DNA of 64,000 nucleotides from Daphnia pulex. Taxonomy: Eukaryota > Arthropoda > Branchiopoda > Diplostraca > Daphniidae. Below the pieces are notes generated by a model that was not told the DNA's origin, did not search any database, and worked only from the letters and a program-made list of their open reading frames with translations. Position 1 is the first letter of the stretch. Each line of letters starts with the position of its first letter. This document shows, piece after piece, positions 52,216-60,876 of this stretch. Both the position numbers and the translations under genes were made by a program. The DNA lies in contig NC_060022.1 in the NCBI RefSeq assembly GCF_021134715.1, positions 3,539,001 through 3,603,000 on the forward strand, in the 5' to 3' direction.

Positions 52216-54773
52216 TTAGACTAGAGAGTTACCATTTAAAGTTTCAGATAAACTAGTAAGGAAACTCTCACCATTTATTATATTTGTCGTGGCAATCAGA
52301 TAATCTGTAGGTGCTAAAAAATTTTAAGGAAAAAAAAAGTTATTGTTTAAGTTGTTATTTGCAAAATATGTTGAACGCTAATTACTTACCATCATCCCTT
52401 TTAGATAGAAATCTAAGAGCAGAAATCTCTGCGTAGGTACATCCACCGAGGAAGAATACTAATGTGACCTTGGTTTCTTCAATCGAACTATGGACACTAT
52501 TTCTAGAATTTCCTAAAATACAGTCGAAGTGTGATTATAAGGTCTCATAAAAACTAAGAAACGGAAACAAACTTCTTAAATCAATGGAAATTGGTTGAGT
52601 TTCTTGAACCAAATGTCCTGGAATCAAATTAAGCACATCGGAAATCTGCTTCCATCCGGGCTTAGCTGCCCATTGAATCAATCGTACACTTAGTGGCGCG
52701 TAAATAGAATGTACATAGGAGATGTCAGTAGGTGTGATTTCATTGACGTCATCTACCGTAAGATTCAGCGCTCTCCGTATAACAGTAAAAGGACGATTAC
52801 TTTGCTGCAATCGAAGGAGACCACAAGCTTCAAGATTGTGAAGCGTAATCATGTGCTGGAATCCGTAAGCGTGAATAATTTCTCTTTTGTAGTGTTCTAA
52901 GACGCGCGGCTTCAGGCCACTATTGGCAGCAGATTGCAGACAAATCAAGCGAAGAATCTGTGATAATTATAAATGTAAAATAAAGGGAAATGGCAAAATG
53001 TATCCAACTGCCACTTCAGTTACCTTAGTCAATGGTTCCTGCTTACAAATGAAATCTTCAATGTATGGACAAACTTTGTCAGTATCAATTCCATTCAAAA
53101 GGTCTTGCTCCACTTGAAGGGCCTCTTGGAATGCTTCTGAAATAGTTATTTCTTTAATCAATTCAGCGACAGATGTATCTGTAAAAAAATTATGCGTAAT
53201 ACAGCTTAAATAATGCGTAATACAGCTTAAATAATGGCCAGGAAAAAATACGACAAAGTATTTACGTAGTGCTAAAGACTGTTTGGTGGCTTGCATCTGC
53301 GGTAGTTTTGCTACAAACTGCTTCAACTCGCTGACAGTTTTTGCTTCGTGTCGTTCTTCATACTGAGCTGAAATAGCTTTAGCTTTGCGACTGAGTGCAG
53401 TACCCACGGCTGAAAAGTTCTTGTCCCTGTGCAAAATAAATAACTTTAAAACTGTCGGAAGCAAAATTTGTCTGATTCAAAATTTCACCTCAAATCAGCG
53501 TAAAGCTCTTCGGCCGAGTTTAGAACAACAGATTTAACAGAGCTATCATCAGAGCGAGGTGACTGGCCCGCAGGTGAAGAGGCTTGAAACTTTTCTCCTG
53601 GAAGCTTGACTGTATCTAAATAACAATGAAACCACAAAATGCAAGTAAAATAATTGTTTTACACAGAAGCTAACAATACTTTCTTACTATGTTTTATTCC
53701 ATAGAATTCGTCGATAAGACCCTCATAGGTCAACTGAGTGACAACAGGAGTTATCAAATCTACAGTCCTATCAATGATCATGAGAGTGTCGAACAACGGA
53801 GACATGGGGGGATCACAGTCTACCCCAATATCACGTCGCATTCGAGTCATCAATTCGAATACGTTACGGGCATGGCGTCCCTTACCCACAACGTTGGGGA
53901 AAATGCCATATAAACTTTGGAGGGACATTAACCCATGAGCAATTTGGTGTAAGGAGCTGATTTCATTATCAACATATAGATCCTGGGAAGAAATTTGAAG
54001 AAATCAATGACAAGCAATCCCTTTCAAAGTTTGGCTCATAAATAAATACCTTGAAAACATTATCGAGTTCCATTGAAATGACATCACTATCCAGTGGGAA
54101 AAAATCAACAGGCAGTTCATCAATAGAAGTAAGAGTTCCATACACTCCTTTGTCCTAAATGAAGTAATAATTTTGTCAACAATTTCTTCTTCGCTGATTT
54201 AAGTAACTTTAACCAACCTTGAGCCGTTGCTCACATACTGCACTTCGTCGGGAGACAAAAATTAACTGATATTCCTTACTAGCAGAATGTCCTTGGCTTT
54301 CTTCGCTGAAATGTAAATTAACTAATTGTTGTCTATTTAAAGTTAAAATATGTAGATTATTCATACCTGTGCAAGTTATCTGCAATACAATCCATCAGCT
54401 CAACTTCAGGTCTTGTGATGAACAGTATATTTTTAACAGATATGGAAGGCAAACGCCCAGGTTTTAACTGGAACATTTTTACAACATCTAGTTCCTTAAG
54501 AAAACTGTATTCTGCCACCAAACCAATGGGGCCAGTGAGTTGTTCATCCCAAAATATCGCCTAGCATAATTGATGAATTTACGTAAATTTCTTAAATGGA
54601 ATAGCACACACCAAAATACCTTTGTTCCACTGAACTTCTCTAAAAGAGAAACAATATCCTGTAAAAATAACAAAACTGTTGACAAAATTTATTTTTACTG
54701 TATAAAATTGTACCTTTCTTGCCAACTCTCTCAGCATACTAAAGTTGACTTTGCCAGCTGATAAATGAGCCAT
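52216..54773 (-). CDS. Vps33A: Vacuolar protein sorting protein 33A (Sec1/Munc18 family)
   Basis: Twelve exons (54773-54714, 54658-54620, 54560-54367, 54305-54218, 54154-54050, 53982-53688, 53615-53489, 53426-53266, 53178-53024, 52957-52573, 52512-52390, 52313-52216) give 609 residues, close to human VPS33A (596). Characteristic parts are the N-terminal [48 protein letters not shown], the [11 protein letters not shown] motif of Sec1/Munc18 proteins, and the C-terminal [18 protein letters not shown]. Vps33A is the SM-protein subunit of the HOPS and CORVET tethering complexes that drive SNARE-mediated fusion at late endosomes and lysosomes (the fly gene is carnation). The last intron before the C-terminal exon and all phases fit. 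Intron 8 holds a 21-bp tandem duplication near 53190-53235. Confidence 0.95.
53190..53235. repeat. 21-bp tandem duplication in a Vps33A intron
   Basis: ATGCGTAATACAGCTTAAATA occurs twice in direct order with a 21-base period. It lies inside the intron between exons 8 and 9. It is a simple local duplication, perhaps polymorphic. Confidence 0.8.
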
Positions 54774-55301
54774 GGCTGCTTTGTTAATAAAATTTGACTT
54801 ATAAATTGGTAAACAGATTCGATCTGTTAGATTTAATTCTTTAAGATACGTCTAAGTACGTCGCTATTAACTGTCCAGATTCTAGATTTCTTAAGCGAAG
54901 GGTTTCCGAGCTTTTGTTTCTTTGTTTCTGATGAGGAAATATTTCGATTATTTCGTAAATGATTGGTATTGATAGTTGCTTTAAAGTATATAGTCAACTA
55001 GTAAATAGACCCAAGCTGAGAAACAGTGACCACTGACAAGTATCAGCACAACTGACAGCTTACAGTTGTAAACACTGAACAGCTGAGATAGGAACCATAC
55101 AGTGTTGCCATTTTCCGAAACGGCTATCCTGGACAGTTGGCAAAAGCGGCAAAAGCAAAACACGGATTATGGAAACACATATTACACTTTCCTCTCATTA
55201 GTCATTTCGCTTATCATAAAGTACATTAAATAAATTCATAATCATTGAACTCCTATTTTATTGGACGTCCACAAAAACAATCACCTTGTTTTAATGGTGT
55301 T

Positions 55302-57671
55302 TTAAAAATGGCGCTCTTCTGGCTTCAACTTGACAAAAGTTTCACTGACCTCCCACAGCTTCTTGGCTAATTCGAGGTCTTTTGCCAACTTGGACGTTTT
55401 AGCAATCTGTGATTTTAAAAAAATTGTATTTTTAATTCGAAAAATATTTAAAACTTGCATTGCAAATATTATTTCCGGTACATCTTTATCAACTTTTAGA
55501 TTATCGTTGTATGCATCAGCTTTGATTTGCAGGCATCTATATTATTAATAAATGTTTTTTGTTTTAAGTTAATATTTTACCTTACAATCGCTGAAATATT
55601 CTCCTGTAACGTTGGCGACTTCGTCAGCCACAGCCAAGTGAATACTTGTCTGCGCACCTTCTTTGGCCGACTGAAATATAGAAGGTAGACAGTTATAACG
55701 TTCAACGGATATGTAAATCAATCTCAGTAATGAATGAGGAAACAAAATTGAATTCTCAGTTTTCTCGTCTTAAACCTTTGAGAAAATAGAAGACACATGT
55801 GATGCAATTTTCACTAAAGTCTCATAAGGAAGGAAACGACCAAATTCAGTTTGAACGACACCCGGATGAAGAGCATTGACAGTAATGTTTTTACCTATAA
55901 GAAAAAATAATAAGTTAATATACATTTAATTTCTAGTGTATGTATGCTTGATGAAAATGAAGTATTCACAACTAATTAAACAGTGGAATGAGATTTTTTA
56001 AAATGCAGCAGAAAAAGAAAAAAAAATAAAAAACCTTAAAGAAAAGTGGAATGCAGACCGCGGCTACCATCTGGAACCCTAATTAAATTACTCGAGTAAT
56101 ATTTGGCTGAATCAGAATACAACAACATATAAAAAATGATGTTACATGTTGGAGCGTTGCGAAAGATTTCAGTTTTGACAGCACCAGGATGCAAACAGTT
56201 GACGGTTACACCTTATCGTATGCAACAATTGAATTTAAAATTGAGGTGATTAAAAATATCAAAATTAGCTTGAACTATCAAACAACAAGGTTGCTTCATT
56301 GTTGATCATTTAAATTTACTTGTACTTTAATTATTATACCGGATTTGATAACGAGAGGTGCGAGATGTCGAGTACAGAGAACTTGGCACAACTTGGAATA
56401 AAAGTATCTGGTAAAAAGTTGATAAGCGTTAAAATCAATCTGTGAAAGTCAATATAAAAAAGAAGCCAATATGTACACTGTGCCGGTATTGTAAGACAGT
56501 TCCGAATTTAAGTTGTTCAAGTCCAATGTGTTAGTCTGGGAGTGCGCCATGGAAGAGACGAATATAATACGAGAGGGAGCAGATTTTTTCAGCAAACCTT
56601 AGGTGAGGCACATACAAGAGCAAGAAGAACATGAGAGTTTTGTGCATCTGAATGGGTTTTTATGTTACTTTATATGTCATGTTTCGACCTAATTGTTATT
56701 AGGACTCTAAATAACTTTTCATTCCACCGTTGAATATTGGAATACTCATTCACCGAGCATGAAAAATTAACGAATAGCTGAATTCACCAAAAGGTTCGAG
56801 TTTCTTGGCCAGTTCTTTGCTAAATAAAACGTTGCAAAGCTTGGTGATCCCATAAATGTTGAGAATTTTATTATCGGATGGATCACGTTCAAATGTGAGA
56901 TCATCCAAGTTCAGTTTTTTTATCCATCTGTGAGCGGTTGAACTAACGTTGATGATGCGGACACTTTTTTCCACTTCTAGTTTGGTTCCAGCAGTTTTCA
57001 TCATCAACCCTTCAGTTTAGTTGAAATGATTTGATATCGACACATGAATGATGTATCGACCATATTGATTTCCTTCCACAGAAAAAACGCCACAAATAAG
57101 AGACTTACCTAACAGCAGATTGGTCAAAAGGAAGTGCCCGAAATGATTGCTCTGCATCTGAACCTCGAGTCCATCTTCTGTCAACTTCTTCTCAATGGTA
57201 GCGCAGCCAGCGTTATTGATTAGGACGTCTAAACGAAGCTCACTCTTGAGAATGTCTGCGGCAAACTTGCGGACGGATTTGAGCGACGTCAAATCAAGTT
57301 GGCGAATAAACACATTTTTGTTACGTGACTCACGAATGATGTCCTCTGCAGAAAGATGTGATAGAGAAAAACCAGCAAGATGAAATTAACCTATATAACG
57401 TTCAAGTGTACAAACCTTTTGCAATGGCTGCTTTCTTAGGATCTCGACATGCCAGAATGACTCGTGCTCCTCTCTTTGCCAGATCAAGCGCCGTTTCCTT
57501 GCCGATACCGGTATTTGCTCCTGTGATGATGACAGTTTTCCCAGTCAACTTCTTCGTACTGGTGCAAACTCCCGTCGTCAGGATGAGATACGCTTTTATG
57601 ACACCCAATACAACCAAAATTAGTAATCCAATTTGAGTCATAATGGACAACGAACACACGGAATTCAACAT
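55302..57671 (-). CDS. Retinol-dehydrogenase-like short-chain dehydrogenase with two alternative catalytic exon sets
   Basis: Isoform A (342 residues) uses exons 57671-57416, 57345-57109, 57009-56788, 55894-55776, 55670-55581 and 55406-55302. Residues 10-35 form a membrane anchor ([18 protein letters not shown]). Then come the cofactor motif [15 protein letters not shown] (Arg typical of NADP preference), NNAG, catalytic Ser in VSSTAHR, YGITK as the Y-x-x-x-K pair, and HPGVV. The C-terminus has [10 protein letters not shown] and EYFSDCK, as in RDH11-14 enzymes. These reduce or oxidise retinoids and other lipophilic alcohols and ketones at the endoplasmic reticulum or mitochondrial membrane. 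A second set of four exons between exon 3 and exon 4 (see the separate entry) can replace exons 3-4 in phase. A downstream start at 57641 is possible. The true substrate is unknown. Confidence 0.9.
56035..56597 (-). CDS. Alternative catalytic cassette (four exons) of the SDR gene
   Basis: Exons 56597-56477, 56407-56340, 56211-56146 and 56078-56035 lie inside the intron between isoform-A exons 3 and 4. Joined, they read from [20 protein letters not shown] (catalytic Ser region) through [12 protein letters not shown] (Y-x-x-x-K) and [17 protein letters not shown] to [15 protein letters not shown]. The first acceptor needs one carried base and the last donor ends in phase 0, exactly like the exons they would replace, so exon 2 can splice to the cassette and the cassette to 55670. 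The full isoform B would have 328 residues. All donors and acceptors are GT-AG, though two donors are weak. The alternative reading is a nested relic of a duplicated gene, but the open, phase-correct set with both catalytic residues argues for use. Confidence 0.75.
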
Positions 57672-60075: not shown

Positions 60076-60876
60076 ATGAAAGTCGTGGTAAGATAATATT
60101 TGATGTTACTTCACTTAAATCTAAAAAAAAAAAAAAAAAAAAAATCGTGAAAGAACTTGCTAGAATCAAAATTGTGCGAGCAAAGCTTTACATTTTTGCC
60201 ATGCCTATTCGTTTAGATCGTTTTAGCGTTTTTGGTGGTTCTGGCGGCAGCCGTTGAAGAAACGCAACAGGTCAAAGGAGACGCAACTCTTTTAGATTTG
60301 CAAACTGCTGAGCATCGCCACAAGGGATACAAGGGACGCAAGGGCCGCTCTGTCGCAGAAGAAGCAGCTGACTTGGAAGCCGCTGAACATGGTCATAAGA
60401 AATTCAAGGGACGCAAGGGCCGCTCTGTTGGAGGAGAAACTGCCGACTTGGAGGCCGCTGAACATGGTCACAAGAAATACAAGGGACGTAAAGGCCGCTC
60501 TGTCGAAGGAGAAACAGCCGACTTGGAAGCCGCTGAACATGGTCACAAGAAATACAAGGGACGTAAAGGCCGCTCTGTCGAAGGAGAAACAGCCGACTTG
60601 GATGCCGCTGAACATGGTCATAAGAAATTCAAGGGACGCAAAGGCCGCTCTGTCGAAGGAGAAACAGCCGACTTGGAAGCCGCTGAACATGGTCACAAGA
60701 AATACAAGGGACGCAAGGGCCGCTCTGTCGTAGAAGAAACTGCCGCTGAAGATCTAGAAACGGCAGAGAAGAAACACAAAGCCTATCGCGGAGGATATGG
60801 TGGTCATGGAGGATATGGTGGACACTCTGGAGGATACGGTGGCTATGGCGGCCATTACGGTGGATACAGAGGTTAA
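60076..60876 (+). CDS. Secreted tandem-repeat protein with R-x-x-R sites and Gly-rich tail
   Basis: Two exons: 60076-60087 (MKVV) and 60217-60876. They encode 223 residues. The start was chosen because joining exon 1 to the acceptor at 60216 completes a signal peptide MKVVIVLAFLVVLAAAV. The next acceptor, at 60226, would shift the frame. The mature part holds six units of about 25 residues with the consensus DLEAAEHGHKKYKGRKGRSV plus EGETA. Each unit contains RKGR followed by SV, which fits the furin consensus R-x-x-R. The tail (about residues 190-223) is rich in GGYGGH. There is no cysteine in the repeat. Histidine- and glycine-rich secreted repeat proteins occur among cuticle proteins and antimicrobial peptides, but I cannot name a family. 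It could be a polyprotein releasing several peptides or a structural protein. Confidence 0.85.
60366..60756 (+). repeat. 75-bp tandem coding repeats
   Basis: The block beginning GCTGAACATGGTCA recurs at a 75-base period (at about 60381, 60456, 60531, 60606 and 60681), with an earlier diverged unit at about 60306. Units 3 to 6 are nearly identical, including synonymous positions, so recent unequal exchange or gene conversion is likely. Copy number may vary between individuals. Confidence 0.9.

Follow-up and report, generated by a model that had tools for sequence, protein, structure and literature searches.

A classical SDR gene of Daphnia pulex, retinol-dehydrogenase-like, carries two alternative catalytic and substrate segments between a shared beginning and a shared end. 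The gene lies at 57671-55302 on the minus strand of the window, by which is meant the whole 64,000-nucleotide stretch of DNA analysed here. As far as the sequence can tell, there is a good case that both catalytic segments of this one gene work, and the gene probably makes at least two enzymes through alternative splicing. The fuller reading, in which products A and C would arise by splicing under the control of a stem between two introns, in a gene descended from an ancestor that already held both segments, is considered likely.

Gene structure and protein products

Ten exons follow one another on the minus strand in the order e1, e2, e3, c1, c2, c3, c4, e4, e5 and e6. Common to both products are e1 (57416-57671), which holds the start codon, a hydrophobic N-terminus and the TGANTGIG cofactor motif, e2 (57109-57345), with NNAG and NHFGHF, e5 (55581-55670) and the last exon, e6 (55302-55406), with the stop codon. 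Set A consists of e3 (56788-57009), its first part, with a Ser and YGITK, and e4 (55776-55894), its second part. Set C lies between e3 and e4 and is made of c1 (56477-56597), with a Ser, c2 (56340-56407), with YFYSK, c3 (56146-56211) and c4 (56035-56078), the borders of c1 and c4 being taken from a splice-aware alignment. A first-pass annotation of this DNA had claimed that a four-exon set with its own Ser and Y-x-x-x-K stands between exon 3 and exon 4, and the set is indeed present and intact; each of the splice points proposed there (57109, 57009, 56597, 56035, 55776 and 55670) was found with GT-AG borders. None of the ten exons contains a stop and all borders are GT-AG, such that both sets give open frames through GT-AG introns to the common stop codon, with 342 aa for product A and 328 aa for product C. 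These full-length frames bear out the claimed phase compatibility of both sets with exon 2 and with the exon at 55670.

The names of the classical SDR motifs are TGxxxGxG, NNAG, the catalytic Ser and Y-x-x-x-K. The two cofactor motifs, TGxxxGxG and NNAG, sit in the shared exons e1 and e2, while alignment places a Ser within a VSS stretch in each set and Y-x-x-x-K as YGITK in e3 and as YFYSK at the start of c2, after a split codon. The swapped part runs from after one 13-residue stretch to before a second one, and includes the catalytic Ser, Tyr and Lys together with what follows them. In SDRs, the second half of the protein shapes substrate choice. Products A and C would share their N-terminal anchor and cofactor half but differ in the substrate half. 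The Pfam family adh_short (PF00106, cut-off 26.6 bits) matches both products, at 106.4 bits for A and 116.2 bits for C; the match on product A stops at residue 190, before the Tyr of the Y-x-x-x-K seen by alignment, and that on product C extends to residue 248. Among the best 60 of 475 and the best 60 of 429 matches of the two products to solved structures, the closest chain is 3rd5 for both, and the best matches are SDRs other than retinol dehydrogenase. Over the variable columns, window A and window C are 40% identical (p-distance 0.60).

Two stretches of the minus strand, at 57015-57071 in intron 2 and at about 55083-55160 just downstream of the gene, resemble the last exon or exons of this gene family. 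Their scores (24.3 and 22.7 bits, respectively) are both above the best obtained from 52,950 bases of the same window (21.6 bits), and that of the intron 2 scrap is reached by 0 of 100 shuffles. Both noticed after the fact, these e6-like scraps are perhaps the remains of an older tandem copy. Elsewhere in the window, a neighbour gene of the Sec1 family lies at 52535-54560 on the minus strand, with Pfam Sec1 matching each of the three exons tried (slightly below the cut-off in one case); we take it to be VPS33A-like. On the plus strand, an open frame at 60217-60876 without a Pfam match contains a 75-bp tandem repeat in 5.9 copies.

Paralogues carrying a single set

The genome searched has 13 contigs that add up to 133,188,837 bases. 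Contig 13 (15,333 bases) carries mitochondrial genes, and for a GH7 cellulase piece of the genome the best solved chain is 4xnn, from D. pulex, at 228.9 bits, the next one reaching 144.8. A search with the set-C segment returned 10 matches: 3 are its own exons in the window, 6 fall on contig 2 (E 4.1e-10 to 9.2e-4) and the last falls on contig 3, which speaks against a chance resemblance. With product A, 62 matches were found. From these matches, three paralogues were annotated on contig 2 and three on contig 6. The contig 2 genes, near 12.010, 12.050 and 12.546 Mb, have only set C in three of three cases, and the contig 6 genes, which form a tandem cluster at 2.633-2.638 Mb, have only set A, again in three of three. 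Among the annotated genes, the window gene alone has both.

The layouts of the single-set genes are those of the window gene read with one set or the other. Window set C and the three contig 2 genes share an identical eight-exon order with identical phases (250-256, 237, 121-136, 68-74, 66, 44, 90 and 105 nts), and window set A shares an identical six-exon order with the three contig 6 genes (226-256, 237, 222, 110-119, 90 and 105 nts), in which the homologue of e3 is a 222-nt exon and that of e4 a 110-nt exon in every case. The difference in intron positions between the two cassettes that had been pointed out at first, two exons against four, thus holds and recurs at matching layouts in the paralogues. 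The other set as a whole would not fit into the introns of the single-set genes, and no convincing remnant of it was found in them, the top matches among those listed (18.9 and 18.5 bits) scoring below the best from unrelated window DNA (21.6 bits).

Some of the related loci show damage or unusual signals. In the contig 6 tandem genes (locus L053), e1 of one gene, C6b, is interrupted by a single in-frame stop, and the remaining two genes have a GC donor after e2. Near 12.543 Mb, a decayed set-C copy (locus L051, 1511-2603) is without e2 and has stops, and a fragment at 1924-2289 of locus L052 has only pieces of c1 and e6.

Selection on the two sets

When dS in the codon model is linked to the shared exons of the same genes, the window branch has an omega of 0.132 for set C (p 1.2e-12 for omega = 1) and of 0.096 for set A (p 2e-31); the branch time of set A sits at its upper limit, which leaves only the direction of that estimate safe. 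In this model with linked dS, purifying selection is apparent on both sets. The untied codon test gives omega 0.082 for A (p 2.5e-11) and 0.297 for C, where omega = 1 is not rejected (p 0.11). When window C is compared with the three contig 2 genes, the differences at codon positions 1, 2 and 3 are 25, 19 and 52; 25, 20 and 51; and 31, 14 and 44, such that in each comparison position 3 differs more than either of the other two. Among the four set-C rows, window C has the shortest protein branch (0.17 vs 0.24-0.45).

Possible splice products and splice signals

Exon e3 and the pair c1-c2 have phase 1 at either end, and c3-c4, like e4, starts in phase 1 and finishes in phase 0. Joining e2 to either e3 or c1, and either e4 or c4 to e5, keeps the frame, with the SDR motifs in both products. 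The exon lengths do not correspond one-to-one, 222 nts standing against 121+68 and 119 against 66+44. Because the phases are alike at both choices, mixed products are also in frame, at 339 aa for e3 with c3-c4 and 331 aa for c1-c2 with e4. The early suggestion that one gene could make two enzymes is upheld to the extent that both sets are intact, are conserved in the linked-dS model and each reproduce, with the shared exons, the layout of one paralogue class; the number two does not stand in the same way, since the phases allow four products.

Twelve exon combinations were examined for frame. The frame survives when e3 is joined to c1 (402 or 405 aa), so that phase is no bar to double inclusion on that side. 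Joining c4 to e4 gives an early stop 131 nts before the last junction, and such a transcript would be removable by nonsense-mediated decay. Skipping one or both of the alternative positions leads to a stop 46 nts before the last junction.

Splice sites were scored with models built on 36 donors and 36 acceptors of the paralogues, a small and after-the-fact comparison. No acceptor of the gene is weaker than those of e3 and c1 (3rd and 6th percentile), and the e2 donor ahead of them is strong (86th percentile). Both acceptors, at -1.0 for e3 and 0.8 for c1, score below their homologues in three of three single-set genes each. The c1 donor is weak as well (2.6), as it is in two of its three homologues (2.1, 2.6 and 5.9).

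Predicted pairing between the bracketing introns

The intron between e3 and c1 (56787-56598) and that between c4 and e4 (56034-55895) are predicted to form a duplex of -51.2 kcal/mol, a feature that the first-pass annotation had not mentioned. Shuffles that keep the dinucleotides have a mean of -28.6 kcal/mol (s.d. 4.3) and none of 1000 is as strong. This is the only one of the 36 intron pairs of the gene for which 0 of 200 shuffles are as strong, and in a larger run 2 of 19,861 shuffles equal it, which corresponds to about 0.004 when the 36 pairs are allowed for, the stem having been picked from an earlier pairing listing before the 36 pairs were compared, in one species. The core of the stem, with its left arm at 56708-56760 in the e3-c1 intron and its right arm at 55944-56000 in the c4-e4 intron (both on the minus strand), is predicted at -42.1 kcal/mol. 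Compared as DNA, the two arms have 45 identities, 6 mismatches and 8 gap positions, and their local score is reached by 1 of 2000 shuffles, or by 0 of 2000 when G-U pairs are counted. The predicted stem is retained in both the minimum-energy and the centroid fold of the 1,234-nt RNA from e3 to e4, folds computed without shuffle controls for an RNA of this size. Gapless 17-nt matches of such strength are nothing out of the ordinary for the region, with 2 in the real sequence and 0-3 in 20 shuffles of it. A DNA search of either bracketing intron against the rest of the genome, which would miss diverged copies, found no match.

Because the stem brackets c1-c4 exactly, it could loop out set C as a unit and bring e3 beside e4. 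In the proposed mechanism, formation of the stem would remove c1-c4 as one unit, place e3 next to e4 and lead to product A; in its absence, the weak e3 acceptor would be passed over and c1-c4 used, leading to product C. The stem accounts for the skipping of set C and not for that of e3 and e4.

Origin of the two sets and alternative explanations

Which genes the four-exon cassette groups with had been raised as a check at the outset, and the answer is the paralogues of contig 2, the two-exon set grouping instead with those of contig 6. In the tree of the variable segment, window A joins the contig 6 genes (99/98) and window C the contig 2 genes (100/100), and forcing window A and window C together is rejected (AU p 2.6e-5). 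As the two sets fall with separate paralogue classes, the duplication is not private to the window gene. The shared exons place the window gene with contig 2 at only 88/92, and grouping with contig 6 is not rejected (AU p 0.098). When the distance between A and C is scaled to three outgroups, it is 0.64 (0.52-0.77) in the shared columns and 1.05 (0.85-1.29) in the variable ones, an order reversed in 0 of 1000 column resamples; a cruder ratio test is less clear, as A-C gives 2.22 (1.57-3.19) against 1.30-1.72 for the other comparisons, and 16.6% of resamples are reversed against the largest of these. Together with the trees, this gap agrees with the original proposal that the duplication is old. 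Since it is larger in the variable segment than in the shared exons, it favours a dual ancestor with complementary loss, and the divergence of the sets probably predates that of the genes, in line with what such an ancestor predicts. In this history, an ancestor would have carried both sets, the contig 6 genes would have lost C, the contig 2 genes would have lost A, and the window gene would have retained both. The main alternative to an early parting is that the substrate half evolved faster after the split, which could mimic the pattern. The position and phase of the intron between c1 and c2 are also found in outgroup o58, one of four outgroups, which hints that the four-exon form may be the older one. 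The most specific version of the proposal, namely a surviving dual-segment gene in which the long stem would switch the four-exon set as a unit, giving two SDR enzymes, or four with free choices, with single-set descendants of both classes in the same genome, is offered tentatively, the chances being somewhat against it.

The window gene could instead be a chimera, descended from ordinary A and C paralogues, which later gained the other set either by entry of c1-c4 into intron 3 or by addition of e3 and e4. Alternative splicing would still follow, and the paired introns may in that case be a worn inverted repeat from the insertion. It is consistent with such an origin that c1-c4 lie together in one intron with imperfect inverted repeats around them, as an insertion might leave, and that the AU test does not reject a placement of the shared exons with contig 6. 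However, neither bracketing intron has another match in the DNA search of the genome, and the distance of window C to the contig 2 genes (0.49-0.71) is close to that seen for the shared exons (0.41-0.50), which argues against a recent copy; a recent insertion of c1-c4 copied from contig 2 was ruled out on these two observations. The greater A-C divergence in the variable than in the shared columns also weighs against a chimera, and adding e3 and e4 would have required two exact insertions. Overall, this origin is considered unlikely.

Another possibility is that only one set is used and that the other is a relic, its frames open by chance or because the loss is recent. The weak acceptors of e3 and c1 could mean that one set is simply little used, and the untied codon test on C leaves room for it. 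The linked codon model nevertheless points to constraint on both sets, the ten exons are free of stops with GT-AG borders, window C has the shortest protein branch of the four set-C rows, and the copy of set C that has truly decayed in the same genome has lost e2 and carries stops; a relic is thus quite improbable. It would also be conceivable that the choice between e3 and c1-c2 is independent of that between c3-c4 and e4, giving four enzymes, all of them in frame (342, 328, 339 and 331 aa). Against this free combination, which we rate as improbable, A stays with A and C with C in the paralogues, three of three in each class, and the stem encloses c1-c4 as a single unit. Finally, complementary flanks favour circular RNAs in general, and the complementarity of these introns could serve to release c1-c4 by back-splicing as a circular RNA instead of as part of an enzyme. 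Codon-level constraint on c1-c4 points to protein coding, and a circle could form alongside the mRNA, so that back-splicing as the sole role of the set appears very improbable. Two alternative segments in one SDR gene remain the preferred reading.

Relation to known systems and significance

No SDR gene in which catalytic segments alternate is known to us. Full-text literature searches that combined mutually exclusive exons with SDR or retinol dehydrogenase, or retinol dehydrogenase with Daphnia, returned nothing on point among the matches listed; prior publication is still possible. A cofactor-using enzyme in which one N-terminal part is joined to different C-terminal parts is GSTD1, which differs from the window gene in having another fold and alternatives that are terminal and not internal. 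In Anopheles gambiae, splice variants of GSTD1 are documented in the portion of the report drawn on here (PMC1761136). Ketohexokinase, according to excerpts of another, has forms KhkA and KhkC that use alternative exons 3A and 3C and differ in fructose affinity and tissue use (PMC6464065). The window gene resembles it as a small-molecule enzyme with alternative exons, but swaps a multi-exon catalytic segment instead of one exon pair.

Criteria for mutually exclusive spliced exons have been set out with Daphnia muscle myosin among the examples, where, in the sections consulted, adjacent clusters are described without a constitutive exon between them and RNA pairing between introns is named as a possible mechanism (PMC3228551). 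The two sets of the window gene are similar to the exons treated there in their equal phases, GT-AG borders and sequence similarity. Those are single exons of similar length, in contrast to the window gene, where one exon stands against two and the pairing brackets a whole set. In an RNA-seq study of D. pulex, mutually exclusive exons account for 2% in the table of splicing types, and the word "dehydrogenase" is absent from the main text (PMC7318467).

The closest parallel is FYN, in which, in the passages of the report used here, a tandem duplicated exon substitution is described and FGR, SRC, YES1 and FRK retain one exon each (PMC9741552). As in that system, homologous alternative segments occur in one gene and single versions in paralogues; unlike it, the sets of the window gene are nested, comprise two exons against four and would exchange the catalytic half of an enzyme, with splicing deduced here from sequence. 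The swapping of homologous exons with single versions in paralogues is thus already known from FYN and SRC, and the putative SDR catalytic-set case is a variant of it.

For annotation, the gene carries a warning, as a gene model with one set only would lose an enzyme. Swapping the substrate half by splicing and keeping the cofactor half would be a cheap route to new chemistry. The presence of the dual gene and of each single-set class in the same laboratory animal makes it possible to test whether splicing and gene duplication can stand in for each other, whether SDR catalytic halves are freely exchangeable and whether an RNA stem can switch a multi-exon set as a unit.
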